DNA of 40,369 nt. Origin: a virus. The notes below the pieces were generated by a model. The model was given only the letters and a program-made list of their open reading frames with translations. It had not been told where the DNA came from and ran no database searches. The number at the start of each line of letters is the position of its first letter. Position 1 is the stretch's first letter. Made by a program: the position numbers and the translations under genes. Below, one piece after another: positions 5,012-39,456 of the stretch. The stretch lies in IMG/VR virus record IMGVR_UViG_3300049225_000425, positions 1-40,369 of that record; one strand, 5' to 3'.

Positions 5012-8000
5012 TTATAAACTATCAAGTTGTTTTTTATTGTAATTAGTTGTTTCCTCTTCATTTTTTAGAGTTTCAACTCCTTTCCAATATTTATTTGCAT
5101 CCTTATCTTTTCTAGTTCCAATAAGTAATACATTATACTTACCATCTTGATTAGAAGTTATTGTAAGTATAGTGGTTTCTAAGTTAATTAAACCAAAAGC
5201 TTGACCAAAATGACCATCAGCAGATACCCATATTTGATTGTCTTTATTTAAATCTTTATAATAATTAGGTAATGTAATTTCTGCTTTATTATTAACCGTA
5301 GTTACAGAATATCTATATATATTATCTCCAGCTGTTGGTGATTCAACAAAACTATGTATTAAATTGTGAGTTGAAGATTTGCTAGGGGTTGGATGGTCAA
5401 TTTTAAATGAACCTGCTGCTTTAGCTAATGTACCTACTACACATAAATTACAAACATATGTTGTATGATTTGCTGCGGTTGTATATTGGGATAAACCAAT
5501 TATATGAGAGTTTTCATGGATGTTATTAGCACGATCACTTCCTATAATAGTAGAACAATTTGGATCATTTGTTCCTGTTTTTTTAATTTCATTACCATAA
5601 CCCCCAAGAATAGCAGCTTGTTGAACACAATTTCCTGTTATCACATTACAAGTACCTCCTACTACAGAATTACGTCCTCTACTTCCTGAAATTTGGTTTC
5701 TACATCCTCCTCCAATAAAGTTATTAGATATATAACATAATTCACCCCCACTAGCTAAATCCTGTTGGGTATCTGTAATAGTATTGCAAAAGCCACCAAC
5801 TATAGAATTCATTCCCATATTACTAGCATCGTAAAATGATGATGATCCTTGTAATATTTGATTTAAATTACCTCCCCCAATAAAGTTTTGTGGGAATTTT
5901 CCTTTATAACCACATATAGCATTTTTAAGCCCACCAACAATAGCATTACCACAATTAGTTCTATCAGCAGTACTACCCCCTTCATCTTGAACTTGAATAC
6001 AATTGCTAATTACATTACATTTACCAGATCCTATAAATGAATCTATAACAAATGATTCTATTGTATTGCATGTCCCTGCTCCAATAATGTTTTGACCATA
6101 ATCACTATCTGTTGGTTTATATGTTGCTTGTGCCCGGGTTTGTATTATATTACACATCCCTGATAAAATAGCACTATTATCATTTAAGCAATACCCTTTC
6201 CCAGCTCCATCATCAAATGAACCTGATACTGAGTTTAGTCGACCTGATATAATAGATGAATTAGTAGTTTTTGTTATTATATTGGATGCCCCTCCCATTG
6301 ATGCATTACTTGAGATACTATAAATGCAATTTGAAGTTCCCCACATTGCAGCATTTTTAATATCATCAAAAGTATTGTCTTCTCCAGCCATTAAAGACGA
6401 AGGAGTCATTAAAACATTGTTATTACATCCTACTACAACATTCCAATCGGGGTTACTTTTAGCAGCACCTCCCGTTCCTTCTACATTATTATTACAACCT
6501 CCTATAAGATTATATTGGCCTGAGCTAGTGTTTCTGAAACCAACTATAATTTGTCCTTTACCTGCACTTGTAGAAGTATTACAAAAACCAAATACAGTAT
6601 CACCTGGTCCTTCTGCACGGTTATAACATCCTCCTAATACAGTATGATTTGTTAAAGTAGTATTACAACTACCACCTACAATAGTAGAACATGCTGCATT
6701 GCAAGTAATCCAGTTACAACATCCTCCTAATATAGAATTGTAATCATTATCTCCATTACCATCAATACAGTTATTCCTACCCCCTCCAATTATATTAGCA
6801 CACGCACCTAAAATAATATTGCTAAAACCACCAGCAATAGTATTAAAAGATAGACCTTTTGCTTGATTAGATTTACCACCACCAATAAACGATTGGGGAG
6901 AAAATACACCATTATTAATACCACCTGCAATACTGGATGCAACTGAACTACCAGCTATTAAGTTTGTGCAACCTGATAAAATAGCATTAAATTGGCAGTC
7001 TCCTTCAGGTTCAATGCAGTTAACTAAACCACCTCCTATAAATTGAAAACTTCCTCCTTTTGACCAATGTCCTTTACCCCCTACAATTACATCAAAAGTT
7101 CCAAAAGAACAATTTTGGAATCCTCCAAGGGTAGAAGCCACATTTCCCCCAGCGTAATTACATTGTCCTCCACCAATGATACTAGCTTCTCCGTCATCTA
7201 TTGAGTTACAGTTTCCTCCCCCAATAGTTTGAATATATCCTTTAGCAGTGTTCCCAGCACCACCTCCTATAAAATTCCATCCTTTACCCTCTATGCAATT
7301 ATCTTGGCCTCCCCCAATAAAACTAAGCTCTTGACTAGCATTTGTTGAGTTGCTAGCTCCTCCAACTATGGTACTAGCACCACCCAATGCATTGTTGCCA
7401 GTCCCTCCTAAAACTGAAGAATGAGTTCCAGAAGTTCTATTATTATCTCCTCCCGCTATAACACCATAACTACCAAGTATATCATGACAACGACCCCCAC
7501 CTATAAAAGAATGGATTACTGTTGATCCTTTTCCAGCTACAATATTTGAGCAACCACCAGAAATAACATTAAAACCTCCTACTATAGTATTTGTACATCC
7601 ACCACCTATAAAAGATCCACTTGATTGGATATTATCAACCCCACCATCACATATTTTATTAGTGTTACCACCTCCAATAAAAGAACTAGTAGCTTGTACT
7701 ATATTACTTTGCCCACCACCAATAGTTGAAAAACATCCGGTAGCAGTATTTGAACCACTTACAGGTTGAATACCTGAGTCTATATCTCCAGGAACATTAT
7801 ATTCGTAAGGACCCTCTGGTCCACCACCACCACCAATAGTTACAGTAACATTATCAGCTGTAGGTTCTGTAATAGTAGCTCCTACAAAATTAATAGATTC
7901 TACATCTGTAGTAATTGAAGTACCATTGTCTAAAATTTCTACTGCTTGACCTGTACCCGATGTACCCGATGTACCCGATGTACCGTTTATACCTGATGTT

Positions 8001-10852
8001 CCACTAGTTCCATTTATACCACTTGTACCACTTGTACCACTTTCGCCGGATGTTCCACTAGTTCCATCTATACCGCTTGTACCACTTGTGCCACTTTCGC
8101 CTGAAGTACCTGAAGTACCTGATTCACCTGAAGTTCCTGATGTACCATCTATACCACTTGTACCTGATGTACCTGATTCACCTGAAGTTCCACTTGTACC
8201 ATCAATACCACTTGTGCCAGAGGTTCCTGATTCGCCTGAAGTTCCTGATGTGCCATCTATACCAGAGGTTCCTGATGTGCCACTTTCGCCTGAAGTGCCT
8301 GAAGTGCCTGATTCCCCTGATGTTCCGCTAGTACCATCTATACCTGAAGTTCCACTTGTGCCGCTTTCGCCTGAAGTTCCGCTTGTTCCATCAATACCAC
8401 TTGTACCTGATGTTCCTGATTCGCCTGAAGTTCCACTTGTTCCATTTATTCCTGATGTGCCTGATGTTCCTGATTCGCCTGAAGTTCCGCTTGTTCCATC
8501 TATTCCTGATGTTCCGCTAGTCCCATTTATTCCTGAAGTACCTGATGTTCCGTCTATTCCTGATGTTCCGCTAGTCCCATTTATTCCTGAAGTTCCGCTA
8601 GTTCCATCTATACCACTTGTGCCACTTGTACCATTAATTCCTGATGTACCTGATGTTCCGTCTATACCACTTGTACCACTTGTACCATTTATACCTGAAG
8701 TTCCTGATGTACCACTTTCACCAGAAGTTCCTGAAGTTCCTGATTCACCAGAAGTTCCACTTGTACCGTCTATACCACTTGTGCCACTTGTACCATTAAT
8801 TCCTGATGTACCCGAAGTTCCATCTATACCTGAAGTGCCTGATGTGCCGCTTTCACCTGAAGTTCCGCTTGTTCCATCTATTCCGGAAGTTCCACTTGTG
8901 CCACTTTCACCTGATGTACCTGAAGTACCGTCTATACCTGAAGTACCAGATGTTCCGTTTATACCACTTGTACCTGAAGTACCATCTATCCCAGAAGTTC
9001 CGCTTGTGCCACTTTCACCAGAAGTTCCTGATGTGCCGCTTTCGCCTGAAGTTCCTGATGTGCCGCTTTCGCCTGAAGTTCCTGATGTGCCGCTTTCGCC
9101 TGAAGTTCCTGAAGTACCGTCTATACCTGAAGTTCCGCTAGTTCCATTTATACCGCTTGTACCACTAGTTCCATTTATACCGCTTGTACCACTAGTTCCA
9201 TCTATACCTGAAGTACCGCTTGTACCACTTTCGCCTGATGTTCCTGAAGTTCCTGATTCGCCTGAAGTACCTGATGTTCCATTTTCTCCAGAAGTACCTG
9301 ATGTGCCATCTATACCACTTGTACCTGATGTGCCATCTATCCCACTTGTGCCACTTGTACCATCTATACCTGAAGTACCTGATGTTCCGTCTGCACCTGA
9401 AGTTCCTGAAGTGCCATCTATTCCTGATGTGCCTGATGTGCCATCTATACCACTTGTACCAGATGTTCCATTTATACCACTTGTACCAGATGTTCCATTT
9501 ATACCACTTGTACCTGATGTGCCATCTATACCTGAAGTTCCTGATGTGCCATCTATTCCACTTGTACCACTAGTTCCGTCTATTCCGCTTGTACCTGAAG
9601 TTCCTGATTCGCCTGAAGTACCGCTTGTACCACTTTCGCCTGATGTTCCTGAAGTTCCTGATTCGCCTGAAGTACCACTTGTACCATTAATTCCTGATGT
9701 ACCCGAAGTTCCATCTATTCCTGATGTTCCACTTGTGCCATCTATTCCTGATGTACCTGAAGTTCCTGATTCGCCTGAAGTACCGCTTGTGCCACTTTCG
9801 CCTGATGTTCCTGATGTGCCACTTTCACCTGAGGTTCCTGATGTGCCATCTATTCCTGAAGTTCCGCTTGTACCATCTATTCCTGATGTGCCTGAGGTTC
9901 CTGATTCGCCTGATGTCCCACTTGTACCATCTATACCTGAAGTTCCGCTTGTACCATCTATTCCTGATGTGCCTGATGTGCCACTTGTTCCTGTTCCACC
10001 ACTTGTACCCGATAAAATATTTACTTTTACAGCATCTTCTATTGAACTATCAATAGTAACATCTACCCCTCCAACAAAGTTTATTGCTCTAACATTTTTC
10101 TTTTCTAGAACATCATCTTCATATATATCAGTAATAGTTAAGTCATCAAAAAAATTATTTAATGCAATTTGATATCCAGCTACGTCACTACCTAAAGTAG
10201 TACCCATTCCGGCAATATCATTATTAAAAATAGTTGATAAAGATTCAGTTGTAGTTAATGCAGCTATAGGTAAAGATTGACCTGATCCCCTAAATATTTG
10301 GTCTCCACTTTCTGCTTCAGTTCCATTTTCATTCCATGAAGTAAAAAAAGCTATTTCACTATTTCCTATATCTCTATAAGTAACATCTGTAATTAAATAT
10401 TCGTGAAATCTTCCATTAATAGCTGTTCCACCTGAATCGGCTGCTTGACCAATTAAAGAATATTTGGGAGTGAGATTAATTTTAAAATCAACTTCATCAC
10501 TACCTGTAATATTATTTACATTAATTTCTTGGGCAGGATCTGTAAAAGAAGAAGTTCCTACAAAATAAGTTCCTGCTGGAGTATTTAAGCCTAATGTTTG
10601 ACCACTACCTGCATTTGCATTTGCTGTTTGATCTACTGTTACAGTATTTCCTACAATATTTGTAATTGTAACTATCCCGGCAAATTGGTTATCTATATAA
10701 GTAATTGTTTGACCAATACGTGCTAAATGGGGTAAAGTAATAGTAAATTGATTAGACCCATCAGTAAAATTTCCAGTTGTAACTAAGAAATTTTCATTTT
10801 GTGGATAGGTACTACTTAATTTTCCATAAAAGGGTTGTGATGTATAGGCCAT
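5012..10852 (-). CDS. Giant repeat-containing tail fibre / adhesin
   Basis: A 1946-residue protein in four parts. Residues 1-282 form a beta-rich N-terminus that probably attaches to the virion. Residues about 283-967 are an unbroken run of nine-residue units, GTSGTSG plus a variable pair (ID, ES, IN, rarely AD or EN), collagen-like in glycine spacing. Residues about 1010-1800 contain dozens of IGGGxxN-type repeats typical of a YadA-head-like beta-roll, unusually rich in Cys before Asn (GGQCN, GGCSN, GGCCN). The last 130 residues start [10 protein letters not shown] and include HSFVESP and a [13 protein letters not shown] segment; similar C-terminal modules occur in bacterial and phage surface proteins, possibly for trimer folding or release. 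It is the best candidate for the receptor-binding fibre. The start has no class A leader; an imperfect class B box (AAATTTATATT) lies just upstream. Confidence 0.85.
7950..10005 (-). repeat. 27-bp tandem coding repeat (GTSGTSG-xx units)
   Basis: About 2.05 kb of near-identical 27-bp units, roughly 76 copies, encodes the nine-residue repeat of the giant fibre. Units differ mainly in the two residues between GTSGTSG blocks and in synonymous third positions, so the array is a mosaic of a few unit types in irregular order. This is the pattern expected from repeated unequal recombination or slippage. The same unit recurs at about 11500-11630 in the neighbouring fibre gene. Confidence 0.95.
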
Positions 10853-14795: not shown

Positions 14796-17700
14796 TTAAG
14801 ATTCTATTATTCCTTTGGAAATTAAATCATTTACTATCATAGATGCACTTTGAACTAAATAATCTGTAGGAAAATCCGGATATAATATACCAGGAGTAGT
14901 TGCTACTTCCAAACTACTTAATGAAGCAGTATAAAAACCATCTTCACTAGCATCAGGTGTAAAAAATGATTCTGTTAAAGCAAATGATGATGTCGGTTGT
15001 ATAATCTGAGATATACTTGAACTTGCTAAAGATTCATAAGGGAACGGAAGATCCAAATATAATGAATTAGGATTAACAACTGGTCTTCTTACTAGAAAGA
15101 AATCTTTATTTATAGATCTATCTACTGGTCCATTTAATATTATTTTTAGTCTAGCTGTACCATTAACAATATTTTCTTGTGGAGAAAATACCTTTATAAT
15201 TTTATAAGTATAATTTTCATTATTATTAAATCTAATTTCATCCCCCTCTTGTAATAAGATTGTACTTTCAATAGGATCAAAAGCAGTATTTGCTGGTTCT
15301 ACTCCTCCTGGGAAATAATCAGATTGTCCAGGGAAATAAGGCAAATCACCTTGACGGAAATCTGTACCATATGCTTCATTTATATTAGGGGACATCATTA
15401 CAAGTACAGTTTGGTCAAAGCCATTATATAATGAATCATTAGTTGGTAAACCAAAATCCCAGAATGGAGCTTCTGCAGTATTAATTTCGGACATTAAATA
15501 ATCATTAGCCCCCTGACCTTGTAAACTAATAGCGGTATAAGATCCTTCATAATCAAGTGGGAAGAAGTAACCTTGTCTATAACCGCTTTTAGCAGGTTTA
15601 AAGCCACCTTTAATTCTCCAGTTAATTAAATCATCACCTTTAATTGTATATTTTCCACTATTAGCAGTAATAATCCATTCTAATGCTTTAACTTCGTATA
15701 AACTACTTCTCCATAATCCTAAATCATATAAAGTTTCATACATTTCCCAATCAACCGTACATTTAATTCCACCTGTAGGAACTGGTACTTTAGAATATAT
15801 CCATCTTTTAAATCTCCATCTTTTAAGATAATCTGCAATTGTACCTCTTCTTCTTACAGTTACATATTTTATTATATTAGTCATATCAAACCACCCATAT
15901 CCTAATACGCTACCAATATTTTTTACTCTACCATCATCTGTATAAACTTTACATTCTATATCTTCTAGATTAAATGGTCTTTCCTCTTCTCCCTGCCATT
16001 CAGAACCTTCAAAAGATCCACTACTGTACATATGTAATTCAAATCTGAGTTCATCTCTTACATATCTTGTTTCACTAACAAAAGATGTTACAAATGATGA
16101 TTGAAGAGACACAATCTGTGAAGATGGCAAATCTTGGTTAGCAATAATATATGGATTTATATTAGTTGATGCTGTGTAATATACAGCCGGGCCTCTTGTT
16201 GGATCCAAATAATAAGGATCAAAATCATTTTGTGTACTATACGTTATATCTTCTGATGGGTTTAAATAATAATCAACATATTGTTGTGGGGATGAAGTAT
16301 CAATACTAGCAGTACCTCTTGCTGTAAATCGAGTAAATAATACATCATTTTCGTCACCATTATCATATTGAGATATATAACCTGAACCTGATAGAGGAAT
16401 AAGGTTAGAATAATTATTTGATGAATTTTGTGTGTATAGAATTGGAGAAACATATTGCATTGTTCTTTCTATACTTGAAGGAGTTCCTAAAGTTTTATAT
16501 TTACTTTCCCCACTTTTAGCTGCTATTTTTCCTAAAGTACTATTTGGGAAAACTGCTTCAAATGTATCTATACTTAATTCGTTTAATGAAGGGGGTAAAG
16601 CATTACCTTGTTCATCAATTAAATAATTTAAATTAACTCTTGTTAATCCATTAATATTCGGGTAAGGGTCATCTAAATCATTAAAATACCCAAAATAAGC
16701 ATCTCTTAATTCTATAGTTGGTAATTTACCAAATGTTCCTGTATCTCCAATGTTCCAAACATTTAATTCTCTACTTGTGGATTTTGATCCATTATATTTA
16801 TTTAATATAGAAGCAAATTGAGTATAGTTTGAAACAGGAACTGTTGCTCTAGTTGCACTACCACTAATAATTTGTTTAATATTTACAGGAGCTAAAGAAC
16901 TAGAATAGAATAACGTAGTTGATTGGTAATTATAATCTACATCTTCTAGATAAGGATTTGGTCTTTGAGTATTATAATTATTTAATAGTGGTTGACAATC
17001 TACAGCAAATTGGAAAGGTAATACTCCATTTCCATAAAAAGTTTCTACTATAAAATCAGTAACTGCAGGTACTCTATAATTCCCTGGTTCTAGATTTAAA
17101 TTAGCATTAGACATTTTTGAGGTATCGTTAAAAGGAGACCATATAGAACTACTATTGTAAATACTCATAGAATATTCTGTAATATCTAAACCAAATTGAG
17201 GATTTTTATTAACATTAAGATTAACTCTAAAAGCATCATTTAAATTGTAACTTTGGTTAAATAAGTTTAATGAACCTGTTATTGAAACTCTACCAATTGA
17301 TTCAGTATCATCTGTTTCTAAAAATAATTCTTGGAAAATTGGAGGGCCTAAAGCAGAATTATCATTAGCTTTACCCTGGAATACACCTACAGATCCTGTA
17401 AGTTCTAATGGAGTTACTGTATTTAGTACAGATTGAGATATAATTAATTTTTCATCTGTGTTGAGGGGATTAGGTGCACCTATAAATCTTATTTCGGGTT
17501 GTACTCCTCGTGCAGGTGTATTTTGAGGGAGATATTTTGAAAATTTATATTTTATATAATAAATATCTCCTTCATCATTACGTGTAGAACCTTTATCTAT
17601 AAAAGCACCTTGATCAAAATCATGTTTAATGTTTAAAAATGGACTATCATTAAACGTACCATTTACGTTTAACCAAGTCGAACCTTGACCAGGAGGAAGA

Positions 17701-20700
17701 TGTATACTTATTCTTGCAGATTGGGTTACTATAGTTTCAGGTTGAACTAAGGAACTAGGATCATAACTACCACTTTTTCTTATTAGTTGTGCATCTACAG
17801 ATACTGCCCCATTTCCAAATACACTAGTCCCTAAATTTACAGTATTTGTTGTAATAGTAGGATTTACTAACGTTCCTGTACCCTGGAATCCAGATATAAG
17901 AGGGTTAGCGTTTGTCAGCGGATTATTTGGATTTTTATTACCAAATCCAGGAACACTATCAGTACAAAAAGTGATAACTTGGGATGGGGCTTGTGTATTA
18001 CTTACTGTCCATCTTAGAACTACCCTCATATTTTTTATTTGATAATCAACTAAATTACTAGGAAAATTTGTCCCTTTTACTATAGGTTTATAACAATTAA
18101 TTGAATCCCAAGGCTGAACTGCAAATGTGTATTGGCCTAGGGTATTTTGTGAGGCCGCAAAATTATTATTCATACTACCTGTAAATCTCCATACACCTGT
18201 ACTTCCATCTTCTACTACATATCTACCTCCAGTACCATTTGCGATAATGGGATCAGATGTTGAAATTAAAAGATTTCTTTCATATCCTTGAGTAAAAGTT
18301 CCTTGGGTTGTTGATACTGTATTATTAAAATTTGCTAAATCAGTTAATTGAGTATTTAAACCTCCTAAATTTGGATTAATACCATTACCCCCGGATCCAT
18401 CACAAGTAGCAGTTGCATAACAACTTGCAGAAATATTTGTTCCTGTTGGTGCTACAAGATCATACATATAAAGAGCCCTCATGCCTGTAACTTGCATATA
18501 TTGAGGATCTAATATTTGATAATAAATAGCCCATGTATTTGTAGTTAATGTTCTTAACCAATCCCATTTGACTCCTACAGTACCATCTGTATCTTTACGA
18601 CTTGTATTGATACTGGTTGAGCCGTATGGGGAAAAAGTATTAAATACCCACGCGTCATTACTTCCAAGACTATTAAATGATACATCTGTAGGGGTTATAA
18701 CGCTAGGTGGTTGTGCTCTATATTGGAAATTTATACTAGGAAAATACCAATCTAATGAAGAAGTTCCTGCAAATATCATCTGAGGGTGGCCTGCTAAATC
18801 TGTTGTATCTGGTTTTGGGGCAGTAGAGCTATCCCACCATGATGCTGAACCTCCGGGAATTAAATCATTGTAATTTGTATAATATACAGGAGATAATCCT
18901 TCAGTTATATAAGGAGATGGTTCGTATGATGCTGTATTGGCAGGAAATTGTAAAGGACTTAAGAAAAAACCTTGGGGTTCAACATGACCCGTATTATTAC
19001 TCGCACTATGATATACTCCACTTTGTGTAAAATATTGACCTGGGTCTTCTAACCCTGAAGCACTATATGCAAAAGAAAGAGAGAAAAATAAAGGTATATT
19101 TGGGGTTCTGTCTATATTAAATGACCCATGATTAAAATAATCTCCTGTACCATCTAAAACAGCATTAGTAGTAATATTAGACGAACCTGTATTAAATTGA
19201 TTTAATACATCTGTTGTAGGGTTATTTAGAATTGGGTTACCATTTTCATCCCCCCAAAAGAAAATAGTTTGGTTTTGAGAATTTAATTGATTATTCTTAA
19301 ATGAATTTTGTGAATTAGCATCAATTGTTGATTGAATTTTATAATTACCTCTAGCTTCTACAACAGTCCAATCTTCTGATCCTCCATTAATAGATCCTGT
19401 TATATTAGCATCCCCACCAAATGGGTTAATAGTTAAAATTGTATTTCCAGCATTACTAGTAACTCCTATTACAAAATATTCTGAAGCTACTCTACTATTT
19501 GGTAAATTAGAATCTGGGAATATTATTTCAATTTTTGTACCAGGGAATATATAATCCCCAACTAAATTTCCACCTAAATCAACATTAGAAAGTTTTATAA
19601 GTACAACTCGACTTTCATTAAGACCTTCTAATTCTGTGAAGATTTGGGAAGCTATCCAAGCATCCCCCGGTAATGGGGAATTAGTATTATTAGAAAAATC
19701 TGCAAGGTCTGTTGCTCCTTGTAATACATTATCAAACCCATAAAATATAGGGTTATATCTAATATTTGTATCTGCTACTGAAAGATAAGGACCACAATCC
19801 GGATTTAAAATACCATCTTCAACTGGTATATAAGAACCACTAAAAATACCATCATAAAATTCTGATTGGTTACTTTTAATAAGTACAGATGAACCAGGAT
19901 ATTTTCCTTCACCCCCACTTGCACTTATATATTGAGAACTACTTTGGTTAAAATTAATACTATTAATTACTGATGATGAAAAAGATTGACTCCAACTTTG
20001 TGTTAAAAAGAATCTATTAGATAACCCAAATACAGATGCTGAAGGAGAAGTATTTAATCCGTTAAATCTTTCAAATGATCCACCAGTACCTCCACTAAAT
20101 TTATATAAAGCAGAACCTTGAGTTGAGTATTGGGGAAAATCTGACGATCCTGAGCTATAGTTTTTAGGTAAATTAACTACTAAACCTTCATAATCATGTA
20201 ATGATGATGTTACTTGTGCAGGTCTTTGTCTGTTTCTTTCTAATATGTGTTGTTTTACTACTACACCAGAAGCTAAACTTGTTCTAGCTGGGGTAAAGTC
20301 TTTGATCATTTTAAATAATGAATTATCAAAGAATTTAATTAATCTAATAAAATCAACTATATCATACCCTCGAATATATTTTTCAAAATATGCATCTCTT
20401 AATCTATCTAAATCTGGGTATGAATCTAATGATGAAGATATAAATCTTGGATCTCCTATATAATCTCCTAAGTTAAAATATCCTAATTGTGCATTAATGT
20501 CATCGTTTATTTGGTTTGATGGTGAAAATGCTACTTCTAAATAATTTACATTTGGGGTATAACTTTGGCTTACAAAGGAATGTTGTTGAATAGACTCTAT
20601 TGGAGATATAACATCACTATTTGTATTAGAAATTGTAGCTTCAGATGAAGTTGGTGTTTGGAAACCATAAGGTGCTTCAGCTAAAATTAAATTTTCAGTT

Positions 20701-23552
20701 TGTATTTTATTTGTAATTCTATTTTTTATACCTGCTGGTACTTGATCTTGGTATATAAATTCTTTATTTTCTACATATAATTTTTCACCTTTAGATTGTG
20801 GTAATTGAATAAAATAATCACTAGTACCATTACTAAATGATTGTGTAATCTGTACTGCTGATCCTGTTACTCTAGGGTGAATAGATGTTGGTGCTATATT
20901 AGGTATACCAAGAAGGGTACGGTCTCTACTTAATTGACTACCCAAAGCAGCTCTAAACATTAATTCATCAGGTGTACTATTAACTGTATTGCCTTCAGCA
21001 GAATAAGGGTTTAAAGTATAATCAAAGAATTTACTTTCGCTAACCATAACATTTGGGGCAAACATTCTATATTCTTGGAATGATCCCGAAAAAGGTTGGT
21101 ATACTGTACTATTAATGGTTCTATTTACTGATAAATTTAAAGCTGCAAAATCTGATCTTTCCCATGATCTACTATCTAAAGCAATTTTTGTTTCTGACCC
21201 ACTAAATCCAACTTTACCATCAATTTTATTAGCAGCAAATAAAGATGCTGAAACAGTTGAACTAGCTCCACCTATTCCACTCCCAGTATAAGTAAGTTGT
21301 ATTGACCACCAATCTTCATTAAAGAAAGGGGCAAATACACTACAAGTTACATCAGAATTGTATGCTAAATCTGGGTAAAATTTTAAAGTACCCCAAGTAT
21401 CATAAGGACTAGCTATAGACCCTGAATAAGAACCTGTTGTAAACCCTGATCCAGTATATTCTAAAACAACAGCCGCCCCTAATGAGTTAAAAGAATTTGT
21501 AGATCTATCACTTACCCATAAAAGTTGATTATCTCTAATATCGGGGGATGGTTGATTATTTGGACCTGTTGGTATAGGAGCAGATTTAAATCTAAATTGA
21601 ACTGTACCTGGGGAGTATCCTGCTTGCCCAGTTGTTTGTGGGATAAAATCATTATTAGGAGTAAATGAAGAAGTTAAATACTTAGTTGCATTTTCTCCTG
21701 TATCAAATGCATAATTAAATACATTTTGTTTTAGATCCCAATCTTGAGATTCATTTCTATCTTTACCCCCAAATTCACTAATTCTTAAAATAGTATCTGG
21801 TATTCCATAAGAAGTAATTAATGCTCTTATACCAGCTACTGTACCTTTAGTTTTAAGTAAATATGGTATGTTATGGTAAATTCGTTTATATAATTGTTTT
21901 TGAACATCATTTAATGGGACTATATCATTTGAAGAAGATATTTGAGTATTTACGTACTCATACCCAGAAGGTATAGCTAAATCACCATTTCCATCTACAA
22001 CTGAACCAGTTATTTCGGGGAATGGGAATGTGCTGCCCGAAGGAGTTAATCCTAAAAAGGCTGTAAATAAGTCGTTCGTATTAAAATTACTAGCATATAA
22101 TTTTACACCAAAATCTCTAATAGCATCTGCTACTAAATCTTTAGCAATACCATATTCTAAACGATTATCTGCATCAAATTTATTTGAAATATCTTTTGTA
22201 TAAACCCAAACATTATCATAATATTGGGCAACCATATCAACAAACAATTCATATCCTTCATTTGCGGGGTCATCTCTTAAATATTCTGGGATAGACCAAT
22301 ATAGCCAATTTTTATTATCTTGGTCATAATTAGAAGCTGATAGTGCTTGTCCTCCATAATAAGGGGCTCCTACTGTTGCATTACCTATCCATTCTAAAAC
22401 TTCAGTACTTCCTGTTGAATATAGTACAAAAGGGGGTTCTGTATTTTGTTTAGGATATGAAAACTGAGATCCACTATTAAAATATAGAAACGATTCATAA
22501 CCATCAAAGTTTTTTATAACATTATCAATTCGACTTGTTAATTGGGCTTTACTTGAACTATAAGATACAGTATTAATAGTACCACTATTTATTTCATTTA
22601 AAAAACCTGAAATTTGGTTACTAGCTGATTCAATTAATCCTACTTTGTAATAAAAATTTTCTAAACGAATTTTAGCAGAACTAAAATGTACAAAATTTGA
22701 ATAATTTTCATAATTAACATTTATATCAATTTCTTTTTGGTTTAAAAGATTTTTGATTTGATTAATCGAACTTGTTACATCAGATTGTAATAAAGTATTA
22801 AAGGAAAAAGATTCACCACCAGTTGAAGTTTCTTGGGTAACATTTAAATTATAATTTGGACCCGCTATATAAGTAAAATCATCTTCTACAATAGGTACAA
22901 ATGGAAAATTTAATTCATAAGCTTGGGGTAAAGATAATTCTTCAACTACCCACAATTCATCTTTAATATTAAAATTAGAAGGTAAGGGTTCATACAACTT
23001 AATTAAAATTGTAGGATCTATTCCTTCTTCTGTTTCTAACTTAATGTTATTGGCAATTACTGTTTGATTATTACCAAAGTTTAAGTAAAAGTCAACAAAA
23101 TAATCAGCTGTTTCTCTGTATTGGATAAAAGAATTAGATGAAGATATTATTAAATCATTATTAATAACATTACTATCTAATCTAATTTCGGTTCTATCAG
23201 AAGATATATTAGATATAAAATATTTTTGAGATAAATCCGATGATAATCTTTTTCTATAAAAATTATATAAAATATTATATGTACCTAAATCATACCCTGA
23301 ATTTTCTAGGTCTTTTTGTGGGTCTAAAATTACATCCCCATCTCTAATATCATATCCTACTAAAGGGATAGTTGTCCCTGGGTATATTAAATTTTGGTTT
23401 TGGTCATAAACATAATATTCAATATAATCTGTACCTTGTGAAAATACCGTATCTAACTGTGACTGGATAATCAGTTCGGAGTCTGAATTTGAATAGGTTT
23501 GGTATTCAAATGTGTTTGGATCTAATAGTTGAATTGTTATATCTTGAGCCAT
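14796..23552 (-). CDS. Giant (2918-residue) virion structural protein
   Basis: The largest gene here, about a fifth of the window. The N-terminus, MAQDITIQLLDPNTFEYQTY, leads into beta-rich segments; a helical part near residues 430-510 contains YELFVDMVAQYYDNVWVYTK and RLEYGIAKDLVADAIRDFG; further on are YGIPDTILRISEFGGKDRN and, near 1090-1120, FDNSLFKMIKDFTPARTSL followed by KQHILERNRQRPAQ. The remaining 1700 residues are mostly Ser/Asn/Thr-rich strands with several globular repeats. There is no signal peptide or obvious enzyme motif. Its position after the gp6-like gene and two intermediates corresponds to gp7-gp10 of T4, so a giant baseplate wedge or periphery protein is the best guess. 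No frameshift is visible. Shadow frames on the other strand are not genes. Confidence 0.82.
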   Translation of the reverse strand: MAQDITIQLLDPNTFEYQTYSNSDSELIIQSQLDTVFSQGTDYIEYYVYDQNQNLIYPGTTIPLVGYDIRDGDVILDPQKDLENSGYDLGTYNILYNFYRKRLSSDLSQKYFISNISSDRTEIRLDSNVINNDLIISSSNSFIQYRETADYFVDFYLNFGNNQTVIANNIKLETEEGIDPTILIKLYEPLPSNFNIKDELWVVEELSLPQAYELNFPFVPIVEDDFTYIAGPNYNLNVTQETSTGGESFSFNTLLQSDVTSSINQIKNLLNQKEIDINVNYENYSNFVHFSSAKIRLENFYYKVGLIESASNQISGFLNEINSGTINTVSYSSSKAQLTSRIDNVIKNFDGYESFLYFNSGSQFSYPKQNTEPPFVLYSTGSTEVLEWIGNATVGAPYYGGQALSASNYDQDNKNWLYWSIPEYLRDDPANEGYELFVDMVAQYYDNVWVYTKDISNKFDADNRLEYGIAKDLVADAIRDFGVKLYASNFNTNDLFTAFLGLTPSGSTFPFPEITGSVVDGNGDLAIPSGYEYVNTQISSSNDIVPLNDVQKQLYKRIYHNIPYLLKTKGTVAGIRALITSYGIPDTILRISEFGGKDRNESQDWDLKQNVFNYAFDTGENATKYLTSSFTPNNDFIPQTTGQAGYSPGTVQFRFKSAPIPTGPNNQPSPDIRDNQLLWVSDRSTNSFNSLGAAVVLEYTGSGFTTGSYSGSIASPYDTWGTLKFYPDLAYNSDVTCSVFAPFFNEDWWSIQLTYTGSGIGGASSTVSASLFAANKIDGKVGFSGSETKIALDSRSWERSDFAALNLSVNRTINSTVYQPFSGSFQEYRMFAPNVMVSESKFFDYTLNPYSAEGNTVNSTPDELMFRAALGSQLSRDRTLLGIPNIAPTSIHPRVTGSAVQITQSFSNGTSDYFIQLPQSKGEKLYVENKEFIYQDQVPAGIKNRITNKIQTENLILAEAPYGFQTPTSSEATISNTNSDVISPIESIQQHSFVSQSYTPNVNYLEVAFSPSNQINDDINAQLGYFNLGDYIGDPRFISSSLDSYPDLDRLRDAYFEKYIRGYDIVDFIRLIKFFDNSLFKMIKDFTPARTSLASGVVVKQHILERNRQRPAQVTSSLHDYEGLVVNLPKNYSSGSSDFPQYSTQGSALYKFSGGTGGSFERFNGLNTSPSASVFGLSNRFFLTQSWSQSFSSSVINSINFNQSSSQYISASGGEGKYPGSSVLIKSNQSEFYDGIFSGSYIPVEDGILNPDCGPYLSVADTNIRYNPIFYGFDNVLQGATDLADFSNNTNSPLPGDAWIASQIFTELEGLNESRVVLIKLSNVDLGGNLVGDYIFPGTKIEIIFPDSNLPNSRVASEYFVIGVTSNAGNTILTINPFGGDANITGSINGGSEDWTVVEARGNYKIQSTIDANSQNSFKNNQLNSQNQTIFFWGDENGNPILNNPTTDVLNQFNTGSSNITTNAVLDGTGDYFNHGSFNIDRTPNIPLFFSLSFAYSASGLEDPGQYFTQSGVYHSASNNTGHVEPQGFFLSPLQFPANTASYEPSPYITEGLSPVYYTNYNDLIPGGSASWWDSSTAPKPDTTDLAGHPQMIFAGTSSLDWYFPSINFQYRAQPPSVITPTDVSFNSLGSNDAWVFNTFSPYGSTSINTSRKDTDGTVGVKWDWLRTLTTNTWAIYYQILDPQYMQVTGMRALYMYDLVAPTGTNISASCYATATCDGSGGNGINPNLGGLNTQLTDLANFNNTVSTTQGTFTQGYERNLLISTSDPIIANGTGGRYVVEDGSTGVWRFTGSMNNNFAASQNTLGQYTFAVQPWDSINCYKPIVKGTNFPSNLVDYQIKNMRVVLRWTVSNTQAPSQVITFCTDSVPGFGNKNPNNPLTNANPLISGFQGTGTLVNPTITTNTVNLGTSVFGNGAVSVDAQLIRKSGSYDPSSLVQPETIVTQSARISIHLPPGQGSTWLNVNGTFNDSPFLNIKHDFDQGAFIDKGSTRNDEGDIYYIKYKFSKYLPQNTPARGVQPEIRFIGAPNPLNTDEKLIISQSVLNTVTPLELTGSVGVFQGKANDNSALGPPIFQELFLETDDTESIGRVSITGSLNLFNQSYNLNDAFRVNLNVNKNPQFGLDITEYSMSIYNSSSIWSPFNDTSKMSNANLNLEPGNYRVPAVTDFIVETFYGNGVLPFQFAVDCQPLLNNYNTQRPNPYLEDVDYNYQSTTLFYSSSLAPVNIKQIISGSATRATVPVSNYTQFASILNKYNGSKSTSRELNVWNIGDTGTFGKLPTIELRDAYFGYFNDLDDPYPNINGLTRVNLNYLIDEQGNALPPSLNELSIDTFEAVFPNSTLGKIAAKSGESKYKTLGTPSSIERTMQYVSPILYTQNSSNNYSNLIPLSGSGYISQYDNGDENDVLFTRFTARGTASIDTSSPQQYVDYYLNPSEDITYSTQNDFDPYYLDPTRGPAVYYTASTNINPYIIANQDLPSSQIVSLQSSFVTSFVSETRYVRDELRFELHMYSSGSFEGSEWQGEEERPFNLEDIECKVYTDDGRVKNIGSVLGYGWFDMTNIIKYVTVRRRGTIADYLKRWRFKRWIYSKVPVPTGGIKCTVDWEMYETLYDLGLWRSSLYEVKALEWIITANSGKYTIKGDDLINWRIKGGFKPAKSGYRQGYFFPLDYEGSYTAISLQGQGANDYLMSEINTAEAPFWDFGLPTNDSLYNGFDQTVLVMMSPNINEAYGTDFRQGDLPYFPGQSDYFPGGVEPANTAFDPIESTILLQEGDEIRFNNNENYTYKIIKVFSPQENIVNGTARLKIILNGPVDRSINKDFFLVRRPVVNPNSLYLDLPFPYESLASSSISQIIQPTSSFALTESFFTPDASEDGFYTASLSSLEVATTPGILYPDFPTDYLVQSASMIVNDLISKGIIES

Positions 23553-38115: not shown

Positions 38116-38147
38116 TGTGGATCCCTTGATTGGGGTTCGTATATTAA
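38116..38147 (+). promoter_or_regulatory. Class A (host-type) promoter of the tRNA-like gene
   Basis: On the plus strand: TGTG (38116-38119) in place of TTTG, a spacer of 20 bases, then TATATTAA (38140-38147) with GTTCG before it, as in the minus-strand class A sites. The expected start of transcription falls only a few bases before the 5' end of the tRNA-like gene at 38155. It may also serve the two genes that follow. Confidence 0.75.
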
Positions 38148-38154
38148 TGTAAAT

Positions 38155-38266
38155 AAAAGGGTGGAGCAGTAGGTAGCTCACCTTGGCTAAACCGAGCGCA
38201 TAATAGATACGATCGTGAAAAGCAAACGGGTCAAGGAGGTCGTGGGTTCGAGTCCCACCCCTTATG
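38155..38266 (+). tRNA. tRNA-like gene with a 46-nt anticodon loop (39-nt insertion)
   Basis: All arms except the anticodon loop are canonical. Acceptor AAAAGGG (38155-38161) pairs with CCCTTAT (38259-38265) with one mismatch; the D-arm is GAGC-AGTAGGTA-GCTC; the T-arm is GTGGG-TTCGAGT-CCCAC (38242-38258); the variable loop is AGGTC. The anticodon stem CCTTG (38181-38185) pairs perfectly with CAAGG (38232-38236), but the loop between them has 46 instead of 7 nt. Without 39 nt the length would be exactly 73. Removing 39 nt at any point leaves no loop with U at position 33, so the isotype cannot be named. A competing local hairpin CTTGG-CTAAA-CCGAG uses the same 5' strand. The body resembles initiator tRNAs (GGTGGAGCAG, GGTAGCTC). 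CCA is not encoded. It is too short for a group I intron. Confidence 0.65.
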
Positions 38267-38281
38267 CTAAATTAATGTTAT

Positions 38282-38689
38282 ATGGAATTAATATATTTTA
38301 TTAGTGGGATATTGACTGTGGGTGTTGTTTACGGTATTATTTTACTACGTGCGGTTAAATCTTCACATACGGAATTGCTGGCGCGATATCAATTACAATC
38401 AAATCTCTCCTCTATTAGGAATGCAGATATTGATGATGCAATAGATGGTCTGAAATTATTGGTTAAAGATATTCAGACGAATATGGAGAAGGATCAGTAT
38501 GAGAGTCTGGGTAGTATAAACAAACGCATAAAAGAATTGGATACTGTTGTATATGGTAATATGGATAAAATTAAACAGTCGAACCAAGTGTTTAATAAAA
38601 ATGTTACGGATGCGTTTAATGAGATAACACAATTAAAACAAAATTTAAAAATCTTGGGTCAAGATCCAAATATGTTAAGTAGATATTAG
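38282..38689 (+). CDS. Membrane-anchored coiled-coil protein
   Basis: A 135-residue protein. Residues 2-24 (ELIYFISGILTVGVVYGIIL) form one membrane segment; the rest is a charged coil with a RYQLQSNLSSI stretch and VVYGNMDKIKQSNQVF-like heptads. No signal cleavage site is seen. The stop codon is followed immediately by the ATG of the methylglyoxal synthase gene at 38690 with no gap, so the two are co-translated. The function is unknown; it may anchor a partner at the membrane. The start has no clear ribosome site, but lies 16 bases after the tRNA-like gene. Confidence 0.75.
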   Translation: MELIYFISGILTVGVVYGIILLRAVKSSHTELLARYQLQSNLSSIRNADIDDAIDGLKLLVKDIQTNMEKDQYESLGSINKRIKELDTVVYGNMDKIKQSNQVFNKNVTDAFNEITQLKQNLKILGQDPNMLSRY

Positions 38690-39067
38690 ATGAAGTTTGC
38701 ATTAATAGCACATGATAACAAAAAAGCCGACATGGTTGCGTTTGTATCTAAACGTTTACCCTTCTTTAACCGAAAAGATGTCCAAATTGTAACAACAGGT
38801 ACTACGGGGAAGAAAGTAAAGCATGCGGGGATAGATAATGTAGATACAGTAAATTCAGGTCCATTAGGTGGGGACGCAGAAATTGCTGCCATGGTTGTGA
38901 GAAAAGAGATTACTGGTGTTATATTCATGAGAGACCCACTAGATAAACACCCACATGACGTAGATATTAATATGCTAATGCGTTTATGTGATGTCCATGA
39001 TATACCACTGGCGACTAATTATAGAACTGCATCTATATTGATAAAGTATTTTAAACAGAGTAAATAA
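38690..39067 (+). CDS. mgsA: Methylglyoxal synthase
   Basis: A 125-residue protein that matches methylglyoxal synthase along its whole length: FALIAHDNKK (His8, Asp9, Lys12), TTGTTGKKV (Thr36-Thr39), NSGPLGGDAEI (Asp62), FMRDPLDKHPHDVDI (Asp82, His89, Asp92) and RLCDVHDIPLATN. These include the phosphate-binding and catalytic residues known from E. coli MgsA, so it should turn dihydroxyacetone phosphate into methylglyoxal and phosphate. It is shorter than the E. coli enzyme (152 residues), lacking the C-terminal extension that contains an Arg near the active site, but is closer to short bacterial forms (about 137). In a phage it would shunt triose phosphate away from glycolysis and free phosphate; both effects are inference. 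Confidence 0.93.
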   Translation: MKFALIAHDNKKADMVAFVSKRLPFFNRKDVQIVTTGTTGKKVKHAGIDNVDTVNSGPLGGDAEIAAMVVRKEITGVIFMRDPLDKHPHDVDINMLMRLCDVHDIPLATNYRTASILIKYFKQSK

Positions 39068-39266: not shown

Positions 39267-39456
39267 CCTCATATATACACGCTATATGGATACCAACGCG
39301 CGTGGTATTATGGCGATATATATGCGGCGGTACGCCGGCATAACTTATGCATTAAGTATGTAATCAGTATGTACGGGTAAGGTAGTAAGTACCACGTACA
39401 GAAGTACCACCGCGGTAAGGAGTACCACGGTAGTAAGTAATGTGTTTGTTATAATG

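Follow-up and report, generated by a model that had tools for sequence, protein, structure and literature searches.

A conserved phage RNA with an initiator-tRNA-like body and exchangeable heads in place of the anticodon loop

A tRNA-shaped RNA encoded at positions 38155–38266 of the window (the whole stretch of viral DNA analyzed here, 40,369 nucleotides, IMG/VR record IMGVR_UViG_3300049225_000425) was found to be a conserved, non-decoding and modular RNA. The same RNA was detected in 40 viral contigs, 36 of them with one head (type I, window counted) and four with another (type II) in the anticodon loop. Judged by its sequence, the body of this RNA is closest to initiator tRNA.

Structure and detection of the RNA

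The first-pass annotation of this DNA had described a tRNA-like gene with an insertion in the anticodon loop, and its placement of the arms (GAGC/GCTC, CCTTG/CAAGG, AGGTC and GTGGG/CCCAC, with a 46-nt loop) was borne out (Table 1). The statement that every arm fits a tRNA was correct for the D, anticodon and T arms, but not for the acceptor, which has five contiguous pairs plus 1:72 and an A2.A71 mismatch. Inside what had been counted as loop, two further pairs of the anticodon stem (G.U and C-G) were found; beyond them lie the TAAA bulge and then another helix, CCG/CGG, which covaries. The RNA thus has tRNA hallmarks (D arm, T arm, variable loop, and acceptor), while the 7-nt anticodon loop with U33 is absent. 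The hairpin CTTGG-CTAAA-CCGAG, offered earlier as an alternative fold, was not conserved (CTTGA in L014 and CCACAAG in L194).

Table 1. Parts of the RNA and neighboring features in the window.
Feature	Position	Strand	Remark
Promoter-like element, TTGATT region and TATATT	38127–38145	+	Occupied and empty slots aligned
Acceptor 5' strand, AAAAGGG	38155–38161	+	Partner is 38259–38265; 2:71 is A.A
D arm, GAGC-AGTAGGTA-GCTC	38164–38179	+	A11:U24, G18 G19
Extended anticodon stem 5' strand, CCTTGGC	38181–38187	+	Seven pairs with 38230–38236
5' bulge, TAAA (TTAA in most relatives)	38188–38191	+	Same position in both head classes
Type I head: inner helix CCG/CGG, 2-bp GC/GC, loop	38192–38229	+	Inner helix covaries
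Head motif, CGATCGTGAAAAGCAAA	38210–38226	+	Near-invariant; includes palindrome CGATCG
Extended anticodon stem 3' strand, GTCAAGG	38230–38236	+	
Variable loop, AGGTC	38237–38241	+	Matches many host initiator tRNAs
T arm, GTGGG-TTCGAGT-CCCAC	38242–38258	+	
Acceptor 3' strand, CCCTTAT, and discriminator G	38259–38266	+	CCA not encoded
Downstream gene, 135 aa, no family match	38282–38689	+	Marks the locus in relatives

No tRNA was reported in the window by ARAGORN under default settings, and all copies of the family were missed by the standard program. When introns were allowed, ARAGORN called a tRNA here whose insert of 37 nt follows position 37, and each complete family copy tested was likewise called as a tRNA with the insert at 36–39, except L001, for which the anticodon and the insert were placed elsewhere. 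The T arm was the only part of the window RNA matched by Rfam, as a fragment of tmRNA (14.8 bits), and no Rfam family covered the inserted head. The gathering score of RF00005 was passed by the RNA in 4 of 18 records (41.2, 36.2, 33.7, and 33.7 bits), the rest falling below it.

Conservation, relatives and exchange of heads

Relatives were gathered from IMG/VR with differing sequence patterns and through neighboring genes. Eighteen records were searched over their whole length, and each had a single copy; many of these records had no other tRNA, so that the RNA was often the sole tRNA-like gene. The 40 contigs came from many metagenomes, and the position of the insert and the arms were constant in all of them; neither random insert positions nor decaying arms, the signs of decay named beforehand, were seen.

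Folded alone, the window sequence was no more stable than its shuffles (z −0.67), so the case for the structure rests on the relatives. When 29 type I sequences were compared against a structure of 34 pairs, 96.6% of the pairs were kept, vs. 82.1% after shuffling. Double changes were observed at 21 pairs in these sequences (134 cells vs. 38 shuffled, 0/500), and pairing fell to 31–54% when the partners were slid by 1–3 columns. Double changes affected six of the seven pairs of the acceptor helix, whose outermost pair was mostly unpaired. The D arm was 100% paired in the 29 sequences, with variants such as CCTC/GAGG and GTTC/GAAC. The seven pairs of the extended anticodon stem were also 100% paired, with double changes at five of them, as was the T arm, with double changes at three pairs. 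In the family, five to six pairs of the acceptor are firm, the D and T arms are normal, and the anticodon stem has seven pairs. Beyond this stem there are a 5' bulge, UUAA, which reads UAAA in the window and L014, then an inner helix with three pairs, two G-C pairs and a loop. In type I, this loop carries the near-invariant CGAUCGUGAAAAG. Many copies also have an extra hairpin (helices 6 and 7), about 30 nt in length, in which some covariation is seen.

These comparisons indicate that the RNA is maintained by selection and is not decaying, decay being ruled out because of the strong covariation; the stem pairs co-vary and the insert is kept in related phages, and the earlier view that the RNA is not decaying, which had been drawn from the promoter, was confirmed on these other grounds. 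Decay of a tRNA, a pseudo tRNA or an artefact of assembly might have been suspected given that the standard tRNA finder is blind to the RNA and that the fold of the single sequence is not significant. The number of contigs and metagenomes, the 21 pairs with double changes and the near-invariant loop speak against it, as does a 3'-anchored search blind to the head, which yielded no degraded or insert-free copies. This reading was rejected as already refuted by the comparative data, and its probability is negligible.

The conservation of the head was not created by the search, since patterns without the motif still retrieved it. The 16-mer GATCGTGAAAAGCAAA was present in all 23 contigs retrieved by a motif-free pattern (5' body, CTTAAC and GCGC only), and every contig returned by a pattern confined to the 3' body carried head I or head II. 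Exceptions to the type I motif were found in L194 (AAAAGT) and in L216/L217 (GTAAAAAGC). The type II members (L001, L149, L212, and L215) keep the body, the bulge and the position of the inner helix, which is formed by CUUAU/AUAAG, CUCAA/UUGAG or CUGAAGA/UCUUCAG. Their loop differs from that of type I, with conserved UAAUUAA and RUGCAYAUACCA. The sequences of L194 (type I) and L215 (type II) have near-identical bodies and different heads, and comparison of the family shows, at the level of sequence, that heads I and II have been exchanged on one scaffold. Palindromes of 6 nt occur in both heads, CGATCG in all aligned type I sequences and ATGCAT/GTGCAC in type II. A short coding frame in the head was also considered and rejected after a check by eye, in which the spacing of the apparent stop triplets shifted among relatives.

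The ordinary tRNAs that scored best with the family model were intact CAU tRNAs of other phages (L186, 68.5 bits; L002, 61.2 bits), in both of which 1:72 is mismatched and the anticodon stem is GGG:CCC. In the Bacteroidota initiator tRNAs that were fetched, the pattern of the D arm, variable region and T arm was the same as in the RNA family; the tRNA-fMet of Bacteroidota also shares with it the weak acceptor end and, in most copies, A11:U24. A mismatch at 1:72, or at 2:71 where 1:72 can pair, was observed in the tabulated copies (2:71 in the window). The A11:U24 pair was found in 25 of 31 copies, window included, and the others had T:A or C:G; one of these non-A:U rows, L084, is misparsed (the search string recurs in its acceptor stem). 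Unlike tRNA-fMet, which has CAU, U33 and a GGG:CCC stem, the RNA has a head inserted in the anticodon loop, the CAU anticodon is absent from the family copies, and the three G-C pairs 29–31:39–41 are not kept, the stems being CTTTG/CAAAG-like. The likeness suggests that the RNA descends from an initiator tRNA.

Searches beyond these contigs gave no further members. Only T arm matches and no copy of the RNA were found in the cultured phages searched, nor was the RNA found in the plasmids searched. No copy was detected in 395 Bacteroidota genomes, where the first of two scans scored only eight candidates in each genome, and the matches to the head motif in GTDB contigs had no tRNA-like surroundings. 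Flavobacterium phage immuto, the closest cultured relative that was found, had no copy according to the family model. The NrdA of the L036 phage showed 80% identity to that of immuto, and one window protein had immuto as its sole match; on these two likenesses, the host of the phages carrying the RNA is probably a member of the Bacteroidota. No description of the RNA was found in the literature, and no described family covers it in the sources searched.

Locus and genomic contexts

In the window, the start codon of the downstream gene lies 16 nt past the RNA, which is therefore located in the leader, behind an element which we take to be a promoter motif of the Bacteroidota type. The same locus was found in four states. 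It was empty, with the promoter and the downstream gene present, in L193, L196, L197, L200, L201, and L205–L210; it carried an intact initiator-like CAU tRNA in L198 and L199, head I in the window, L014, L059, and L194, and head II in L215. The promoter at the 5' end of the RNA, proposed earlier, is hence real and conserved, but its use as evidence for the RNA itself does not stand, since in relatives without the RNA it serves the downstream gene and so is not specific to the RNA.

Other copies followed queC in clusters of 7-deazaguanine genes, followed tRNA-Gln, or lay between unrelated genes. Since the RNA appears in several contexts, between genes or behind tRNAs, its ends would have to be generated by processing. 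The position after queC was frequent in L036, L038, L043, L045, L049, and L088, and several of these loci also had queD-, queE- or dpdA-like genes for 7-deazaguanine DNA, called by similarity to annotated immuto genes and by reading of the sequences. Near the queC gene of immuto itself (L104), an 86-nt "tRNA-Cys" is annotated downstream (20246–20331) that was not accepted by ARAGORN; it folds into an acceptor stem and a T arm that enclose two irregular hairpins, and is possibly another non-decoding tRNA-like RNA.

Additionally, several other features of the window were recorded. Directly downstream, at 38690–39067 (+), there is a methylglyoxal-synthase-like gene (Pfam MGS, 50.5 bits), an unusual cargo for a phage, and a stretch without a long frame contains short degenerate direct repeats, GGTAGTAAGTACCACG, at 39381–39444. 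A protein of 1946 aa with collagen-like repeats (Pfam Collagen, 309 bits) is encoded at 5012–10852 (−), and near it lies a frame of 2918 aa at 14796–23552.

Possible function, alternatives and comparison with known systems

The reading that we favor, with slightly better than even confidence, is that of a dedicated phage non-coding RNA in which an initiator-tRNA scaffold carries a working head and acts in trans on a cellular partner, likely as a decoy or antagonist. The body of an initiator tRNA (fMet-type) without anticodon would be a stable scaffold, trimmed from longer transcripts by the host tRNA-processing enzymes, presumably RNase P and those of the 3' end. The anticodon stem, lengthened, bulged by UUAA and capped, would present the head as the working part; the head would bind the partner, and the initiator body would give processing, stability and perhaps recognition. 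In trans, the RNA may be a non-cleavable decoy or antagonist of a factor recognizing initiator tRNA or translation initiation, with an anticodon nuclease or an initiation-stage factor as candidate partners. Such a role is suggested by the ancestry of the body. The earlier proposal of a decoy or regulatory RNA would point to the right region. The loss of the GGG:CCC stem of initiators and the other 11:24 pairs of some members were counted against it. VapC acting on initiator tRNA is among the nucleases discussed in relation to phage tRNAs, and altered phage tRNAs have been proposed as an answer to tRNA-cutting defences (PMC10264068), which makes an anti-defence decoy attractive. Those nuclease-resistant tRNAs (van den Berg 2023, PMC10264068) are also phage tRNA genes with altered anticodon loops; however, they bear mutations in the loop, whereas the RNA has no decoding loop at all.

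A function in cis was also weighed, in which the RNA would be a riboswitch-like 5' leader element controlling the 38282–38689 gene. Its closeness to the start codon in the window, under the gene's own promoter, would fit; nevertheless, the majority of copies are found in other places (behind queC, behind tRNA-Gln or before unrelated genes), relatives with the same gene and promoter have an empty leader, and a leader switch needs no full tRNA body, which leaves this an improbable explanation. Somewhat less unlikely, and still doubtful, is that the heads work by RNA–RNA pairing, through dimerization of the loop palindromes or as antisense to a host transcript. Palindromes of 6 nt are exposed, and the outer letters of ATGCAT/GTGCAC in type II change together, but this change was seen in one of four sequences and the type I palindrome is invariant, hence without covariation. 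Moreover, the reverse complement of the motif gave 15 matches in 16 phage records, each of them the RNA itself, and the complementarity of the head to host 16S and 23S rRNA showed no excess over shuffles. With no complement elsewhere in the phage records and no excess in rRNA, an antisense role against the phage's own genes or host rRNA was unsupported and was rejected.

A tRNA with a short intron, spliced by an unknown or protein-dependent reaction into a working tRNA, would agree with the usual intron position of the insert (after 36–39 in nearly all copies by ARAGORN with introns), with flanks held together by stems, with two unrelated heads at one site and with relatives carrying an intact initiator-like tRNA at the same locus. 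The products of excision do not fit. As the first-pass annotation had stated, no simple excision leaves U33: a 7-nt loop with U33 is impossible in the window and in all listed type I copies except L059, none of the excisions leaves CAU, and T33 is possible in type II, but only with inconsistent anticodons. Positions 34–36 would furthermore vary among relatives, since the window would have TAA there and most others TTA. The annotation was also right that no group I or II intron fits, since the insert is too short and has no Rfam match to such introns or to a known ribozyme. Intron-bearing tRNAs of archaea and eukaryotes share a short insert at the anticodon loop. In the archaeal bulge-helix-bulge (BHB), each strand has a 3-nt bulge on the 3' side of a central helix of 4 bp; here, in a phage of a bacterial host, the bulge of each strand is on the 5' side of a helix of 3 bp. 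The tRNA-splicing endonuclease (PF01974) and RtcB (PF01139) were not found in 24 phage records, which were mostly fragments. A BHB intron was rejected on bulge geometry and, as far as these fragmentary records go, on the enzyme search, and the unknown splicing suggested earlier lost ground for the same reasons, together with the two unrelated heads and the lack of a constant anticodon. We regard an intron as very improbable.

Among known systems, the T4 RNA C (species 1 RNA; rnaC) is also a stable phage RNA that comes from a tRNA region and resembles tRNA in its T arm and 3' end, but it has long helices in place of the D arm and head and no sequence relation. By this comparison the RNA resembles RNA C in kind and is not its homologue; T4 rnaC gave no match with the family model, though T4 tRNAs did. 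In the T4 record (L251, 1409–1547, −), rnaC has the T arm GGGTTCGAATCCC and a tRNA-like 3' end, and its 3' part was called by ARAGORN with introns as a tRNA with an insert. The function of RNA C is still listed as unknown (PMC9697503), as is that of T4 RNA D, another phage RNA from the tRNA region. As in tmRNA, a domain resembling tRNA carries an insert at the place of the anticodon arm; unlike tmRNA, the RNA lacks G3:U70 (the window has A-T at 3:70) and a tag frame, its D stem is normal, and its insert is far too small. Identity with tmRNA was rejected, the Rfam match covering the T arm only.

In the engineered "tRNA scaffold" vectors, an insert on a tRNA body replaces the anticodon loop for stability. 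These are man-made, whereas the RNA is natural, conserved and has exchangeable heads. A wider reading, which we hold more tentatively and with a little less than even confidence, is that it belongs to a natural class of tRNA-scaffold RNAs, in which initiator tRNA would be the carrier of interchangeable trans-acting heads, directed for example at host translation initiation or tRNA-cleaving immunity, with more head classes to come.

These results add a conserved, structured RNA, previously unlisted, to phages in which little is known about non-coding RNAs, and it is of a sort that standard tRNA software discards. They indicate that a tRNA gene of a phage need not serve decoding. Finally, the four states in which the locus of the window was found are a ready comparative set that bears on the role of phage tRNA-like RNAs, a question also posed by the T4 RNAs C and D.
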